The notes beneath the pieces are model-generated. The model had not been told where the DNA came from and made no database searches. It saw nothing but the letters and a program-made list of their open reading frames with translations. A stretch of DNA of 64,000 bases, from positions 1-64,000 of the forward strand of contig JAKUNJ010000006.1 of assembly GCA_022451965.1 (NCBI GenBank), in the 5' to 3' direction. Shown piece by piece: positions 58,777 through 63,866 of the stretch (the stretch's first letter is position 1; each line of letters begins with the position of its first letter). The position numbers were made by a program, and so were the translations under genes. The DNA is from Dehalococcoidia bacterium. GTDB lineage: Bacteria > Chloroflexota > Dehalococcoidia > Lucifugimonadales > Lucifugimonadaceae.

Positions 58777-59797
58777 TCTTAACTAATTTTTGGAGAGACC
58801 TGAGCTCTCTTTTAGGATTTAGAAATTGCCCATAATCACTGTAAGAAACTTCAGCAACATAAATATTACCCTTTGAATCTACAGAAATTCCATGAGGAGA
58901 ATAAAATCTTCCCACACTTGGACCATAGCTATTTACACCAAGTCTTGATAAAAGATCGCCTTTTTTATTAAAAATTGAAATTCTTGGCCCTAAGTTAGTA
59001 CCTGTGTCATTAGATGCTATTCCAGAAAAATATTCACCTACATAGAAGATATCTTCTGAACCTCTTTTATCTATGTAAATACAAGCTGCTCTAGATAAAT
59101 TTATCCATTGATCAATATATTTCCCATTACTATCAAAAATCTGCACTCTGTGGTTCTCTCTATCGGCCACATAAACAAGGCCATCTCTATCAGTCGATAT
59201 ATTGTGAACTATATTAAACTGTCCTTCTCCAGTTCCTGACTCTCCCCAAGAAAAAAGATATTTTCCATCTTGATTGTATTTGTGAACCTTTGCATTTGAA
59301 TAACCATCAGCAACATATAGTTCATTATTATTTTCATCTATTGCTACTTGTGTTGGAACTGCGAAAGGTAGCCCGCTCATTTTGCCAGCTTTTTCTCCTT
59401 CTTTTCCAATCTGAAAAACTAGCTCACCAGAGGAATTAAATTTTCTAACAGTATTATCACCGGAATCAACGCAATAAATATTATCTGAACTATCTACACT
59501 AATTCCGTGTGCATTTGAAAAAATATTTTCTCCCCAAGATCTTAGATAATTTCCATCTTGATCAAAAATTATTATAGGCTTTGTTCCTCTATTGAAAACA
59601 ATTATTTCATCAAGACTATTTACAGCAACAGCAGTAGCTTCACTTAGGGTCCATCCTTTGGGAAGATTACCCCATTCTTTACCATCAATTTGATACTTAT
59701 AGGGAGAACTTCCATATATAACAGATCCACTTCCTTTTTCCATATCTTCATGGCTAGGAAGACCATACTCTAAATTTTCTTTTTGTTCTTCACTCAT
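58769..59797 (-). CDS. NHL-repeat beta-propeller protein
   Basis: The 342-residue protein consists of about six NHL-type blades, for example NAHGISVDSSDNIYCVDSGD, TQVAIDENNNELYVADGYSN and VGRFYSPHGISVDSKGNIYV. No signal peptide or catalytic motif is seen. Similar propellers are found as enzymes (peptidylglycine-lyase-like) or binding modules. It overlaps the stop of the rhodanese lipoprotein gene by 4 nt and is the last gene of the sulfur operon, so a role in the same process is possible but not shown by sequence. Confidence 0.78.
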   Translation of the reverse strand: MSEEQKENLEYGLPSHEDMEKGSGSVIYGSSPYKYQIDGKEWGNLPKGWTLSEATAVAVNSLDEIIVFNRGTKPIIIFDQDGNYLRSWGENIFSNAHGISVDSSDNIYCVDSGDNTVRKFNSSGELVFQIGKEGEKAGKMSGLPFAVPTQVAIDENNNELYVADGYSNAKVHKYNQDGKYLFSWGESGTGEGQFNIVHNISTDRDGLVYVADRENHRVQIFDSNGKYIDQWINLSRAACIYIDKRGSEDIFYVGEYFSGIASNDTGTNLGPRISIFNKKGDLLSRLGVNSYGPSVGRFYSPHGISVDSKGNIYVAEVSYSDYGQFLNPKRELRSLQKLVKIS

Positions 59798-60699
59798 TTT
59801 ATTTCAATTGGTAAATCTGAGTTACCCCATTCGATCCAAGATCCATCATAAACTTTTACATTATCATATCCTAAAAGTTCTTGTAATACAAACCATGTAT
59901 GAGTAGCTCTAACTGCTGTTTGGCAAAGAGTGTAAACGGCTTTATCAGTCTTGATTCCTTTACTTTCATATATAGTTTGTAGATTTTGAGCACTTAAGAA
60001 TCTTCCAGATTCATCGACTGCATTTACCCAGTTTACATTTTCTGAACCAGGAATATGGCCACCTCTATCAGCTCTTACATCTTTACCTATATACTCATCT
60101 GGACTTCTTGTGTCACAAACGATTTTTGAAGGATCATCAACAGCCTCTAGTATTTCCTCAAAACCAGCTATTAAGCTACTGTTTACATTCCCAGAAAATT
60201 TATAGTCAGATTTCTCTACTGATTCAGATTCGCTAGTAGTTGGAAAGCTATTTTCTGACCAATAGTTCCAAGATCCATCTAGTAATCTTGAATCTTCATG
60301 TCCATAAACCTCTAAAGCCCATAAACCTCTAGATGCCCAAAGATTGCTGTTTCCATCATAAAATATCACAGTATCATCTTCATTAATTCCAACTGAACTT
60401 AAGGCAATTGCAATATGATCAGATGATGGAAGCATTCCTTTAACTCCGTTAGAGTCTTCCCATTGAAAAACTTCATTTGGAGTCAATCTAACAGCGCCTG
60501 GAATATGCCCAAGATCATAATCTTCTTTTTTTCTTACATCAATTATTTTTACGTTATTAATGTTTTCTTCCAACCATTCAGCTGACACTAATTTTTCAGT
60601 ACTTGAATAGCCTCTATCATCAAAAGAAGTTTCAGATGATTCTGAACTGCAAGCTAAAATTATAGCAATTGCTGATGTTATTAAAATTATTTTTTTCAT
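59794..60699 (-). CDS. rhodanese-type sulfurtransferase lipoprotein
   Basis: The 301-residue protein has a signal peptide with lipobox IILAC (Cys17), then two rhodanese domains. The first (about 35-150) has DVRKKEDYDLGHIPGAVRL and no active Cys. The second (about 175-301) has DTRSPDEYIGKD, GGHIPGSENVNW and the catalytic Cys in YTLCQTAVRATHTW. It resembles thiosulfate/mercaptopyruvate sulfurtransferases (SseA), which are normally cytoplasmic; here the enzyme should be lipid-anchored outside the membrane. It is downstream of tusA and the YeeE-type transporter, which suggests processing of thiosulfate or another sulfane-sulfur compound at the cell surface. Confidence 0.88.
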   Translation of the reverse strand: MKKIILITSAIAIILACSSESSETSFDDRGYSSTEKLVSAEWLEENINNVKIIDVRKKEDYDLGHIPGAVRLTPNEVFQWEDSNGVKGMLPSSDHIAIALSSVGINEDDTVIFYDGNSNLWASRGLWALEVYGHEDSRLLDGSWNYWSENSFPTTSESESVEKSDYKFSGNVNSSLIAGFEEILEAVDDPSKIVCDTRSPDEYIGKDVRADRGGHIPGSENVNWVNAVDESGRFLSAQNLQTIYESKGIKTDKAVYTLCQTAVRATHTWFVLQELLGYDNVKVYDGSWIEWGNSDLPIEIK

Positions 60700-60728: not shown

Positions 60729-60965
60729 TTAACCATCTTTTTTTAATGTAATTTTCCATTCACTATTATCTATTTCATCAATTTCTACTTCATAGCCACG
60801 CTTAAGAGCTTGAGGAGGAATAGTTGATAATGCTGGCGAATGATCAGTTAGAACTTCTAATATATTTATTTCTTTATCCGAGTCTAATTCTTCATTTGTT
60901 TTCAACATAGGATATGGACAGATTTCTCCTCTAAGATCAAGCTTTCTTATTTCTTTTTCAGACAT
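60729..60965 (-). CDS. tusA: TusA-family sulfur carrier
   Basis: The start ATG at 60965 has AAAGGGAGT 5 nt upstream; a frame extended to 60995 overlaps the previous gene. The 78-residue protein has the TusA signature LDLRGEICPYPMLKTNEEL with the persulfide-forming Cys in CPYP, and ends with a beta strand EWKITLKKDG. TusA proteins accept sulfur from a desulfurase or rhodanese and pass it on. In YeeE/TsuA loci the TusA-like partner (TsuB/YeeD) is essential for thiosulfate uptake. It overlaps nothing and is 29 nt from the rhodanese gene. Confidence 0.9.
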   Translation of the reverse strand: MSEKEIRKLDLRGEICPYPMLKTNEELDSDKEINILEVLTDHSPALSTIPPQALKRGYEVEIDEIDNSEWKITLKKDG

Positions 60966-60967
60966 TC

Positions 60968-61192
60968 TTACTCCCTTTCTAGCGTTATTCGCCATACATC
61001 GTCTTTATACTTAAACTTAATTTTTATTTTCATTTCTATCGCTTTTGGAGGTATATACTTAACTAATAATTCTTCATTGGTAAGTATTTCTACTGAATTT
61101 GTTTTAGTAATACTTTTTAAGATTTCTTCTACCGCCAATAATTGATCTTTAACCGATTTCCCTTTTAGATTTAATTCACTCTTTGTACTCAT
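60968..61192 (-). CDS. TusA-like protein lacking the catalytic cysteine
   Basis: The start ATG at 61192 is 2 nt after the YeeE stop; a longer frame inside yeeE is not used. The 74-residue protein aligns with the neighbouring TusA: SELNLKGKSVKDQLLAVEE corresponds to LDLRGEICPYPMLKTNEE, IPPKAIEMKIKIKF to IPPQALKRGYEVEI, and VWRITLER to EWKITLKK. The CPxP motif is replaced by SVKD, so there is no Cys to carry sulfur, and no Cys elsewhere in the protein. It may pair with TusA or gate the transporter. Identification as TusA-like is from pattern alignment by eye. Confidence 0.75.
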   Translation of the reverse strand: MSTKSELNLKGKSVKDQLLAVEEILKSITKTNSVEILTNEELLVKYIPPKAIEMKIKIKFKYKDDVWRITLERE

Positions 61193-61194
61193 TT

Positions 61195-62427
61195 TTATCC
61201 AATTGCCTTTATTATTTTTGTTCCTATAAATGCTCCTCCAAAAAGGCTTATACCAAATACCCACCCGGAAAGGGAAAGTGAAGAAATAGCAGAAAAAAAT
61301 GCTCCAATTGTACATCCTATTCCAAGGCTTGCAGAAAAACCCATCATTATTCCTCCACCTAAAGATTGAATATATCTCTTGTAGTTATTAGGAGTTCTTA
61401 TCTTGAATTCCTTGGCCATTAGAGCTGACACTAATGCACCATAAAAAACTCCAACTGTACTTACAAATGTATGAGATATCAATCCTTGACCTACGCTAGC
61501 GCCAAGACACCCACTTAATGATGAAATACCTTTAAGAGCTCCCTCTGATAAGTTTACAGATTCACTAAAGCTCATTGATTGTTTCATTATTTCTCCAGTA
61601 ACCCCTGGAGGTGAGTGAAATAAAAAATAAATTATTCCAATGAATCCAATTGCAACTCCTCCTGTTTTTGCCGACCAACTGTTGGAGAATATATTTACAA
61701 GATTTTCATTGATTTTTTCTAGAAATGTTTTTGGTATTAGTTTCTCTTTTTTATTTATCTTAAATTCAGTAATTCCTGATCTAGATTCAATGTAAATAAC
61801 AAGCACATAAAGACCTAAAAGCAGAATTAGGGTAATAACTAAGCTAAAACCGTAACCCAAAGAAAATGTTGAAGGTAAAAATATTTTACTTTCTTTACTA
61901 ATTAAAGAATCCCACCAAAAATCCCAGCTTATTATCAATAATATTGATCCTATAAAAATACCAATCATAGTAACAACCGAAGCAACATATCCTTCTGCAA
62001 TTCTATATATTGTTCCTGATACACAACCTCCGGCAGTAACCATTCCAATTCCAAATAAAGTCCCAGCAATTATTGTAGATAAACCTACGGGTAAAATATG
62101 AGCAGAAGAAGGATATTCGCCAGGAAGGGGACTAGGCAAAATCCAGCTTAATATACCTACAAAACCAATTGATGCTATTATGATTGCTATTATTACTCCT
62201 TTCATATTCTGTCCAGATCCAAATAAAAATAGGTCTCTAAATGAAGAAGCAAAACAGAATCGAGATTTTTGGAGAGCAAAGCCTAAACCTGATGCAGCTA
62301 ACCAAATTGCTGCATCTGAAAAGTTATTATTTGATATTAAATAACTAATCAAAAAAATTGATAATAGCAAAATAAAACCAATATAAAATTGGCTCGTATA
62401 GTAGGTTTTATATGCTTTTGTGGTCAT
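61195..62427 (-). CDS. tsuA: YeeE/YedE-family thiosulfate transporter (TsuA-like)
   Basis: The start is ATG 62427 (MTTKAYKTYY) with GGAA 7 nt upstream; a TTG four codons earlier lies in the terminator U tract. The 410-residue protein has about ten membrane segments and the conserved Cys motifs of the family: KSRFCFASSFRDLFLFG, GMVTAGGCVSGTIYR, SSLSGCLGASVGQG and ASLGIGCTIGAF. These Cys residues are thought to relay thiosulfate through the membrane. It heads an operon with two TusA-like proteins and a rhodanese lipoprotein. A Cys-codon leader ORF and terminator precede it. Confidence 0.9.
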   Translation of the reverse strand: MTTKAYKTYYTSQFYIGFILLLSIFLISYLISNNNFSDAAIWLAASGLGFALQKSRFCFASSFRDLFLFGSGQNMKGVIIAIIIASIGFVGILSWILPSPLPGEYPSSAHILPVGLSTIIAGTLFGIGMVTAGGCVSGTIYRIAEGYVASVVTMIGIFIGSILLIISWDFWWDSLISKESKIFLPSTFSLGYGFSLVITLILLLGLYVLVIYIESRSGITEFKINKKEKLIPKTFLEKINENLVNIFSNSWSAKTGGVAIGFIGIIYFLFHSPPGVTGEIMKQSMSFSESVNLSEGALKGISSLSGCLGASVGQGLISHTFVSTVGVFYGALVSALMAKEFKIRTPNNYKRYIQSLGGGIMMGFSASLGIGCTIGAFFSAISSLSLSGWVFGISLFGGAFIGTKIIKAIG

Positions 62428-62437
62428 AAAATATTCC

Positions 62438-62462
62438 AAAAAAAAAACCCCTCTCGGGGTTT
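62438..62462 (-). terminator. intrinsic terminator in the tsuA/yeeE leader
   Basis: On the minus strand AAACCCC (62462-62456), loop GAGA, GGGGTTT (62451-62445) and a run of ten Ts (62447-62438) make a textbook Rho-independent terminator. It lies upstream of, not after, a gene: its U tract ends 10 nt before the tsuA start codon. Its position points to regulation by premature termination. Confidence 0.88.
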
Positions 62463-62526
62463 CTTATAAATCTATTTATTGAAAAAATTAGCAAATCAAA
62501 GAAACCCGTAGAGGTTATTACTACAG
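62451..62526 (-). promoter_or_regulatory. attenuator: alternative leader RNA pairings before tsuA
   Basis: Segments read on the minus strand: 1 = CTGTAG (62526-62521, in the Cys codons), 2 = CTCTACGGGTTTCTT (62513-62499), 3 = AAGAAACCCCGAGAG (62465-62451), 4 = GGGGTTT (62451-62445). Segment 1 pairs with CTACGG in segment 2 (6 bp, one G-U). Segment 2 pairs with 3 over 13 bp with a 2x2 internal loop. Segment 3 pairs with 4 to form the terminator. The leader stop codon (62498-62496) abuts segment 2. A ribosome stalled at the Cys codons would free 2 to pair with 3 and let transcription proceed. Confidence 0.8.
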
Positions 62527-62567
62527 CAACAAATACAGTTTTCTTTTACTAAGATTTCGTTTCTCAT
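62496..62567 (-). CDS. cysteine-rich leader peptide upstream of tsuA
   Basis: ATG at 62567 opens a 23-codon frame ending in TGA at 62498-62496. The peptide is MRNEILVKEN then CICCCSNNLYGFL: four Cys in five codons (TGT ATT TGT TGC TGT) at residues 11-15. An in-frame ATG at 62576 would add three residues. Cysteine is otherwise rare in proteins here, so this cluster is strong evidence of a sensing leader peptide. No good Shine-Dalgarno sequence is seen; the predicted start of transcription is close to the ATG. Confidence 0.8.
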   Translation of the reverse strand: MRNEILVKENCICCCSNNLYGFL

Positions 62568-62579
62568 AATTGCCATACT

Positions 62580-62607
62580 ATCATAAAATCAATAATAATA
62601 ATGTAAA
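62580..62607 (-). promoter_or_regulatory. candidate promoter for the tsuA leader
   Basis: On the minus strand TTTACA (62607-62602) and TATGAT (62585-62580) are separated by 16 bp and match the -35 and -10 consensus at five of six positions each. This would start transcription near 62573, just before the leader ORF. The region is AT-rich, so chance matches are easy and sufS runs divergently from the same 66-bp stretch. Confidence 0.4.
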
Positions 62608-62633: not shown

Positions 62634-63866
62634 ATGAAAACAAAATTAGATCCAAATAAAATACGAAAAGATTTTCCAGTTTTAGAAAGAATTGTTAATG
62701 ATAAAAAACTAGTATATTTGGATAATGCTGCTACGTCTCAAAAACCAAAATCAGTGATTGATAGTCTTACGGATTATTATTCAAACTATAACTCTAATGT
62801 TCATAGAGGGGTGCATACACTTTCTGTTGAGGCGACAGATTCATACGAAAATGCAAGAGTAAAGGTTGCTGAATTTATTGGAGCTATTCCTGAAGAAACA
62901 ATTTGGACCAGAAATACTAGTGAGTCTATCAATATAGTTGCATATGGGCTTAAGAGTAAACTTTCGGCAGAAGATAATATAGTTGTTTCAAGAATGGAGC
63001 ACCATTCAAATTTAGTACCATGGCAGCAATTATGTACTCAAACAGGTGCATCATTAAGGTATTTAGAGCATAATATTGAAGGAAGAATTGACTTAAAAGA
63101 TGCGAAGTCAAAAATTGATGAGAATACAAAAATAATTGCTGTAACTCATATGTCCAATGTTCTTGGAGTTATAAATCCAATAAGTGAGATCAGAGAGATG
63201 TCTAAAAAATTTGGTTCTTATTTAGTGCTAGATGGTGCTCAAAGTGTTCCACACTTTAAGGTTAATGTAAAAGAAATAGATTGTGATTTTTTATCATTTT
63301 CAGCTCATAAAATGTTAGGACCCACTGGGATAGGTATACTTTATGGTAAAGAAGAGCTGCTCAATGAAATGCCACCATTTTACTTTGGAGGTGATATGAT
63401 TTCAGAAGTTTCATATGAATCTGCAAAATGGAATGATTTACCTTATAAGTTTGAAGCAGGAACTCCTAATATAGCAGATGCTATAGCTACAGGGGTCGGT
63501 GTAGATTATCTTAATAGCCTAGGTATGGATAATGTATTTCAGCATGAAGAGGAAATAACACACTATGCAATAGAAAAGATTATGGAATTAGGAGATTACA
63601 ATATCATTGGTCCTGTAGACGATCATTCTAGAGGAGGAGTAATTTCCTTTACTCATAATCAAATACATCCTCACGATATAGGAGAAATATTAGATAAATT
63701 TGGTATTGCAATTAGAACAGGTCATCATTGTGCGATGCCTCTAGTAAGATCGTATGAAATAGTTGCAGCAGCTAGGGCAAGTTTTTATTTCTACAATACT
63801 AAAGAGGAAATAGATATATTTATAGAAGCATTGAAAGAAACAGTGAACTATTTTAGCAAGTTCTAA
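62634..63866 (+). CDS. sufS: cysteine desulfurase SufS
   Basis: The 410-residue pyridoxal-phosphate enzyme has KIRKDFPVLER at the N-terminus, VYLDNAATSQKP, the cofactor Lys in SFSAHKMLGPTGIG (about residue 224) and the catalytic Cys in RTGHHCAMPL (about 363). The short Cys loop and sequence are of the group II (SufS) type, not IscS. It removes sulfur from cysteine for Fe-S assembly. It is divergent from the thiosulfate-uptake operon with about 67 bp between the leader ORF and its start, so both draw on the cysteine pool. No sufU, sufE or sufBCD is in the window. Confidence 0.94.
   Translation: MKTKLDPNKIRKDFPVLERIVNDKKLVYLDNAATSQKPKSVIDSLTDYYSNYNSNVHRGVHTLSVEATDSYENARVKVAEFIGAIPEETIWTRNTSESINIVAYGLKSKLSAEDNIVVSRMEHHSNLVPWQQLCTQTGASLRYLEHNIEGRIDLKDAKSKIDENTKIIAVTHMSNVLGVINPISEIREMSKKFGSYLVLDGAQSVPHFKVNVKEIDCDFLSFSAHKMLGPTGIGILYGKEELLNEMPPFYFGGDMISEVSYESAKWNDLPYKFEAGTPNIADAIATGVGVDYLNSLGMDNVFQHEEEITHYAIEKIMELGDYNIIGPVDDHSRGGVISFTHNQIHPHDIGEILDKFGIAIRTGHHCAMPLVRSYEIVAAARASFYFYNTKEEIDIFIEALKETVNYFSKF

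Follow-up and report, generated by a model that had tools for sequence, protein, structure and literature searches.

The region upstream of the tsuA gene in a stretch of a Dehalococcoidia genome (64,000 nt, contig JAKUNJ010000006.1, positions 1 to 64,000; hereafter the window) very probably (about 0.88 by our estimate from sequence) carries a ribosome-mediated transcription attenuator sensing charged tRNA-Cys. The leader, its codons, the stop position, the complementary segments, the terminator, their conservation and the cysteine-supply targets are read directly from the DNA. The type of attenuation is known, while the phylum and the regulon seem new for cysteine.

Leader, pairings and genes in the window

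The elements of the locus are as follows.

62602–62607, minus strand: putative −35 box TTTACA, matching at 10 of 12 positions jointly with the −10 box; an equivalent promoter is seen in relatives
62580–62585, minus strand: putative −10 box TATGAT, a promoter-like match
62496–62567, minus strand: leader ORF, 23 codons plus TGA, MRNEILVKENCICCCSNNLYGFL, with Cys-rich counterparts in relatives
62523–62537, minus strand: regulatory codons TGT ATT TGT TGC TGT (Cys-Ile-Cys-Cys-Cys, residues 11–15)
62508–62526, minus strand: putative 1:2 hairpin GUAG...CUAC, 4 bp, weak (sequence reading)
62499–62513, minus strand: segment 2, the antiterminator 5′ strand, CUCUACGGGUUUCUU, overlapping the final leader codons
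62451–62465, minus strand: segment 3, AAGAAACCCCGAGAG, the antiterminator 3′ strand and terminator 5′ arm
62444–62463, minus strand: 3:4 terminator hairpin GAAACCCC-GAGA-GGGGUUUU, −11.7 kcal/mol
62438–62447, minus strand: U tract of 10 U (sequence reading)
61195–62427, minus strand: tsuA/yeeE-like thiosulfate transporter gene (PF04143, E 2.3e-58), its start backed by the G004 alignment
60968–61192, minus strand: gene of a 74-aa TusA-like protein, an operon member between tsuA and tusA, lacking the CPxP cysteine
60729–60995, minus strand: TusA sulfur-relay protein gene (PF01206, E 1.6e-17)
59794–60699, minus strand: gene of a two-domain rhodanese (thiosulfate sulfurtransferase-like) lipoprotein (PF00581 twice, E 2.5e-35)

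Base-by-base reading of the minus strand confirmed the 23-codon ORF with Cys-Ile-Cys-Cys-Cys described in the first-pass annotation. It opens with ATG at 62567 and ends with TGA at 62498–62496; cysteines are residues 11, 13, 14 and 15 (codons 62537–62535, 62531–62529, 62528–62526 and 62525–62523). The longest ATG ORF at this place has 26 codons and starts at 62576, only 3 nt past the probable −10 box, which makes the 23-codon form more plausible. Transcription likely starts 0–6 nt 5′ of the leader ATG, which would make the transcript leaderless or nearly so. In leaders of relatives the start codon mostly lies 6–13 nt past a −10-like box according to a promoter scan whose search window favours short −10-to-start gaps; consensus-like promoters occur 7, 9 and 10 nt from the start codon (e.g., TTGACA-17-TAGACT-7-GTG). 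Such spacing suggests that Cys-leader transcripts in general are leaderless or nearly so, like the mycobacterial ones.

In DNA the terminator reads GAAACCCC-GAGA-GGGGTTTT, followed by ten Ts at 62447–62438, and the tsuA ATG at 62427 lies 10 nt past the last U (62438), in agreement with the earlier description. It was missed by one promoter/terminator scanner of the region, the likely reason being A-U pairs that use up part of the U tract. The 2:3 helix is perfect over 9 bp, GGGUUUCUU (62507–62499) with AAGAAACCC (62465–62457), and is extended by an outer CUCU/AGAG pairing. The 62513–62451 piece folds with −15.8 kcal/mol (z = −3.4 versus shuffles), and the entire leader has a folding z of −3.1 versus shuffles. 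Thus, of the three mutually exclusive pairings proposed at first, the 9-bp 2:3 helix and the 3:4 hairpin with its ten Us stand, but the 1:2 pairing comprises only 4 bp in the window and its conservation is mixed among tsuA leaders; leaders of DUF4395 genes, described below, possess a clear 6-bp 1:2 hairpin, AGAAAC/GUUUCU. The proposal that the ORF ends exactly where the pairing segment begins had to be revised: the last three codons and the stop lie on segment 2, as an attenuation mechanism needs. The TGA is situated directly 3′ of the segment 2 core, where a terminating ribosome could block this segment. Ribosome-masked folding of the window leader gave a terminator probability of 0.00 with the ribosome stalled versus 1.00 with the ribosome at the stop codon.

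From this arrangement we infer that the leader is translated, that transcription terminates behind it and that the element responds to Cys-tRNA. RNA polymerase would begin just 5′ of the leader ORF. At high levels of Cys-tRNA, the ribosome would pass the Cys run and halt at the TGA, covering segment 2; segment 3 could then pair with segment 4, and RNA polymerase would terminate before tsuA. At low levels, the ribosome would stall within the Cys run, some 10 codons before the stop, leaving segment 2 free to form the 2:3 helix, which would block the terminator. The tsuA-tusA-rhodanese genes could then be transcribed, providing thiosulfate import and sulfur relay. Cysteine shortage would, in this manner, probably let the cell read on into its sulfur-acquisition genes.

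Genes located behind the leaders considered here fit cysteine supply (tsuA, tusA, rhodanese, ThiF-family and PALP-family, the last being cysteine synthase-like). The 74-aa TusA-like protein gave no Pfam match, and its likeness to the adjoining TusA was judged by eye; this second, CPxP-less protein (61192–60968) is kept in G004. A SufS-like cysteine desulfurase gene (62634–63866, plus strand) diverges from tsuA, both sharing a short intergenic region.

Such a leader is rare in the genome of the window (G000; 1,253,666 bp, 30.5% GC, scanned as joined contig stretches), where Cys makes up 0.83% of residues across long ORFs. At least four Cys in six residues were found in 5 of 14,326 short ATG ORFs, the window leader being the only intergenic one and the other four lying inside long ORFs. 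An upstream terminator hairpin precedes 84 of the 1,183 long ORFs; just two of these 84 genes have a Cys pair or run in the leader, namely tsuA and moeB-cysM (with the ThiF/moeB-like gene first).

Cys leaders in relatives and before other genes

TsuA is present in 27 of 76 genomes of the family of the window. A Cys leader with a terminator precedes tsuA in 21 SAR202-related genomes examined (genera g1, g5 and g6, one g12, family f16, and contigs L136 and L143), one of which (G051) belongs to another family; the attenuators of L136 and L143 are unrelated in sequence to that of the window. The leader peptides (Cys clusters CMCCCC, CICCCC, CICSCC, CCCC, CCCSC, CCCSCC, CLCCC and others) are alike only in the cluster, and their length, start and tail differ. 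The distance from stop to hairpin is mostly 21–36 nt. Comparison of homologous leaders, a check proposed at first pass, thus revealed the Cys run and the alternative pairs, but in eight GC-rich members of the family tsuA lacks a leader of this kind. Cys-rich ORFs were few at TsuA loci outside SAR202 (among L153–L212), and those of L167 (Armatimonadetes) and L170 were rejected because visual inspection showed no convincing terminator.

Fourteen g1 and g6 leaders share an unchanged GGUUUCU motif. In the window its codons are GGG-TTT-CTT (Gly-Phe-Leu); most leaders translate it to either Gly-Phe-Leu or Arg-Phe-Leu, and G002 and g6 use the other frame, G-GTT-TCT (Val-Ser); therefore, the constraint acts on the RNA and not on the peptide. 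In the g1/g6 alignment, 84% of the cells for the nine 2:3 pairs are able to pair, versus 38–69% when slid. The compensatory changes sought in the folding check are scant there for 2:3 by covariation counts, because segment 2 does not vary in these genera, but between lineages segments 2, 3 and 4 differ wholly in sequence and retain complementarity (by eye: GGGUUUCUU/AAGAAACCC, UCGAAC/GUUCGA, GGGGUU/GACCCC and GUGAGGU/ACCUCAC). Complementarity of segment 2 to segment 3 exceeds that of shuffles with a median z of −1.7, and with p < 0.05 in 43% of 63 leaders.

Equilibrium folding with a masked ribosome gave the full switch for the window leader and some others only; in most relatives the terminator was still favoured with a stalled ribosome (mean 0.76–0.86), so a kinetic advantage of the 2:3 helix must be assumed there. 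Since these folds were not clean, transcripts ending before segment 4 were folded. The terminator 5′ arm was then paired with a probability of 0.80 (tsuA), 0.68 (DUF4395) and 0.53 (moeB) with the ribosome on the first Cys, of 0.29, 0.33 and 0.13, respectively, with the ribosome on the stop, and of 0.52, 0.55 and 0.38 in shuffles. The antiterminator barely overlaps the terminator arm in g1 moeB-cysM leaders (0.01–0.43 paired). Owing to kinship among the 63 leaders, pooled p-values (4e-9 versus shuffles) are too optimistic.

The DUF4395 and moeB-cysM leaders were pointed to by a noisy scan of the genus for a U tract plus three TGY codons. The gene of a DUF4395 membrane protein (PF14340) is preceded by a Cys leader and terminator (example leader MRKCCCCCCCRNERFL) at 32 of 55 loci in the family of the window, from 27 to 65% GC, and CxC-type leaders with a terminator are also found in families f2, f6, f16, f19, f23 and f26 of the order. 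DUF4395 genes with Cys attenuators are many across SAR202 (L103–L108, L113–L132, L213–L237, L340, L344), which suggests a role in cysteine or sulfur supply for this uncharacterised family; a literature search found no functional paper on it. The complete genome of ‘Candidatus Lucifugimonas marina’ JH1073 has a leader of the DUF4395 type, MIFLHAPQTDCLCCCTTSEEMAL, with the DUF4395 gene located near 2,430,291 of CP046147, and a trial in a SAR202 strain is therefore thinkable. In a Lucifugimonas-like genus (L027, L123) the tsuA leader of one genome resembles the DUF4395 leaders, with a near-identical peptide DCLCCCTTSEEMA, a likeness that would fit copying of the attenuator from one gene to another.

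In g1 and g5 a Cys leader and terminator also stand before moeB-cysM, where a PALP-family cysteine synthase gene comes after one of the ThiF family. This arrangement occurs in the genus of the window, including the same genome, whose second Cys attenuator lies on contig 6 near 94,000 (leader MNILSINLNLCCWRAIEL). GC-rich moeB loci, taken as a negative control, had no leader with at least three Cys; thus, the leader detector does not fire freely. The attenuator interpretation of the first-pass annotation is supported by homologues that differ in sequence and frame yet retain the Cys run, the terminator, 2:3 complementarity and a stop located on segment 2 or just 5′ of it, as well as by the same element in front of a cysteine synthase operon in this genome.

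Known systems and alternative explanations

The element shares with the trp, his and leu attenuators of Proteobacteria a run of end-product codons in the leader peptide, a stop that falls on segment 2, 2:3 and 3:4 pairings that exclude each other, and a U tract before the first gene. It differs in that Cys would be sensed, the 5′ UTR is apparently short or absent, the 1:2 pairing is weak in tsuA leaders, and the targets are sulfur import and relay, DUF4395 and moeB-cysM in Chloroflexota. A close cysteine precedent with a terminator is the predicted uORFC-8-2 motif, a Cys-Cys uORF with an intrinsic terminator before cysS in Rhodobacterales (Brewer et al. 2021, PMC8632094). Both have a uORF with tandem Cys codons, an intrinsic terminator and a proposed ribosome-mediated attenuation, whereas the motif has two Cys codons and concerns cysteinyl-tRNA synthetase in Alphaproteobacteria; no common target was seen, the gene behind the window leader being tsuA in SAR202 and not cysS in Rhodobacterales. 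Cys-run leaders without terminators were described in Actinobacteria (Seliverstov 2005, PMC1262725), and mycobacterial polycysteine leaders respond to cysteine according to Canestrari 2020 (doi 10.1111/mmi.14498), as cited in PMC13236596. These have the Cys run near the stop of a short, (nearly) leaderless ORF before cysteine or sulfur genes but no conserved terminator, which, together with an antiterminator, follows the ORF here. No report of Cys attenuation in Chloroflexota or at tsuA, DUF4395 or moeB-cysM was found in a search that was thin on subscription journals. The statement that no such system was known therefore holds for TsuA and Chloroflexota as far as this search goes, but not for Cys-codon attenuators as such, and the element is of a known kind in a new phylum and regulon.

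The Actinobacterial and mycobacterial leaders lend some weight to the idea, already put forward for the mycobacterial ones, that Cys-dependent stalling acts mainly on tsuA translation or via Rho, the hairpin being of minor importance. A hairpin and U tract follow nearly every leader at a set distance, 5′ of the gene, which makes this very unlikely. Slightly less probable still is a working small protein, e.g., a metal- or persulfide-binding peptide, next to an ordinary terminator: Cys runs are generally known to bind metals and small Cys-rich peptides are known beside metal genes, yet the peptide is kept only in its Cys cluster, the RNA motif occurs in two reading frames, each ORF is cut off from its gene by the terminator, and the arm of this terminator has its complement in segment 2.

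Control of the terminator by a ligand-binding riboswitch or a T-box for cysteine would also account for a terminator with an alternative fold, and this genome does have a T-box-like sequence in front of ilvB. This explanation is extremely improbable, however, as an Rfam scan found no relevant family, riboswitch or T-box match at the leader, the stretch from promoter to segment 2 holds only the ORF and no conserved aptamer-like domain, and the Cys codons would be left unexplained.

Possible sulfur control in SAR202

Other leaders were observed in the same genome. On the minus strand of contig 9, at about 38,010 (L320), an O-acetylhomoserine sulfhydrylase-like gene has a Met leader MELFVKTMNMNMMMTFLKGDV and a terminator in front of it. 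The leader has a consensus-like promoter 7 nt 5′ of the ATG, its Met run is kept in five genomes of the genus (also L321–L324, L328), and it looks like a Met attenuator. A Tyr leader MNKNYYTYYYFRLAESF with a terminator stands before a DAHP synthase-like gene (contig 6, minus strand, about 111,492). The T-box-like sequence AAGGTGGTAACGCGG, also with a terminator, lies before the acetolactate synthase-like gene ilvB (contig 5, plus strand, about 56,969), and the genome thus appears to use T-box as well as codon-reading attenuators.

It could be supposed, at roughly even odds, that codon-reading attenuators, placed on nearly leaderless transcripts, govern a sulfur regulon of SAR202: Cys leaders would act on thiosulfate import, DUF4395 and cysteine synthase, and O-acetylhomoserine sulfhydrylase would be under a Met leader. 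If so, it would place the unstudied membrane protein DUF4395 in sulfur acquisition by association; the Cys leaders tie this family to cysteine supply. Cys attenuation with an intrinsic terminator would be extended to a further phylum, and a concrete control circuit for sulfur acquisition would be provided for SAR202, abundant deep-ocean bacteria with few cultures.
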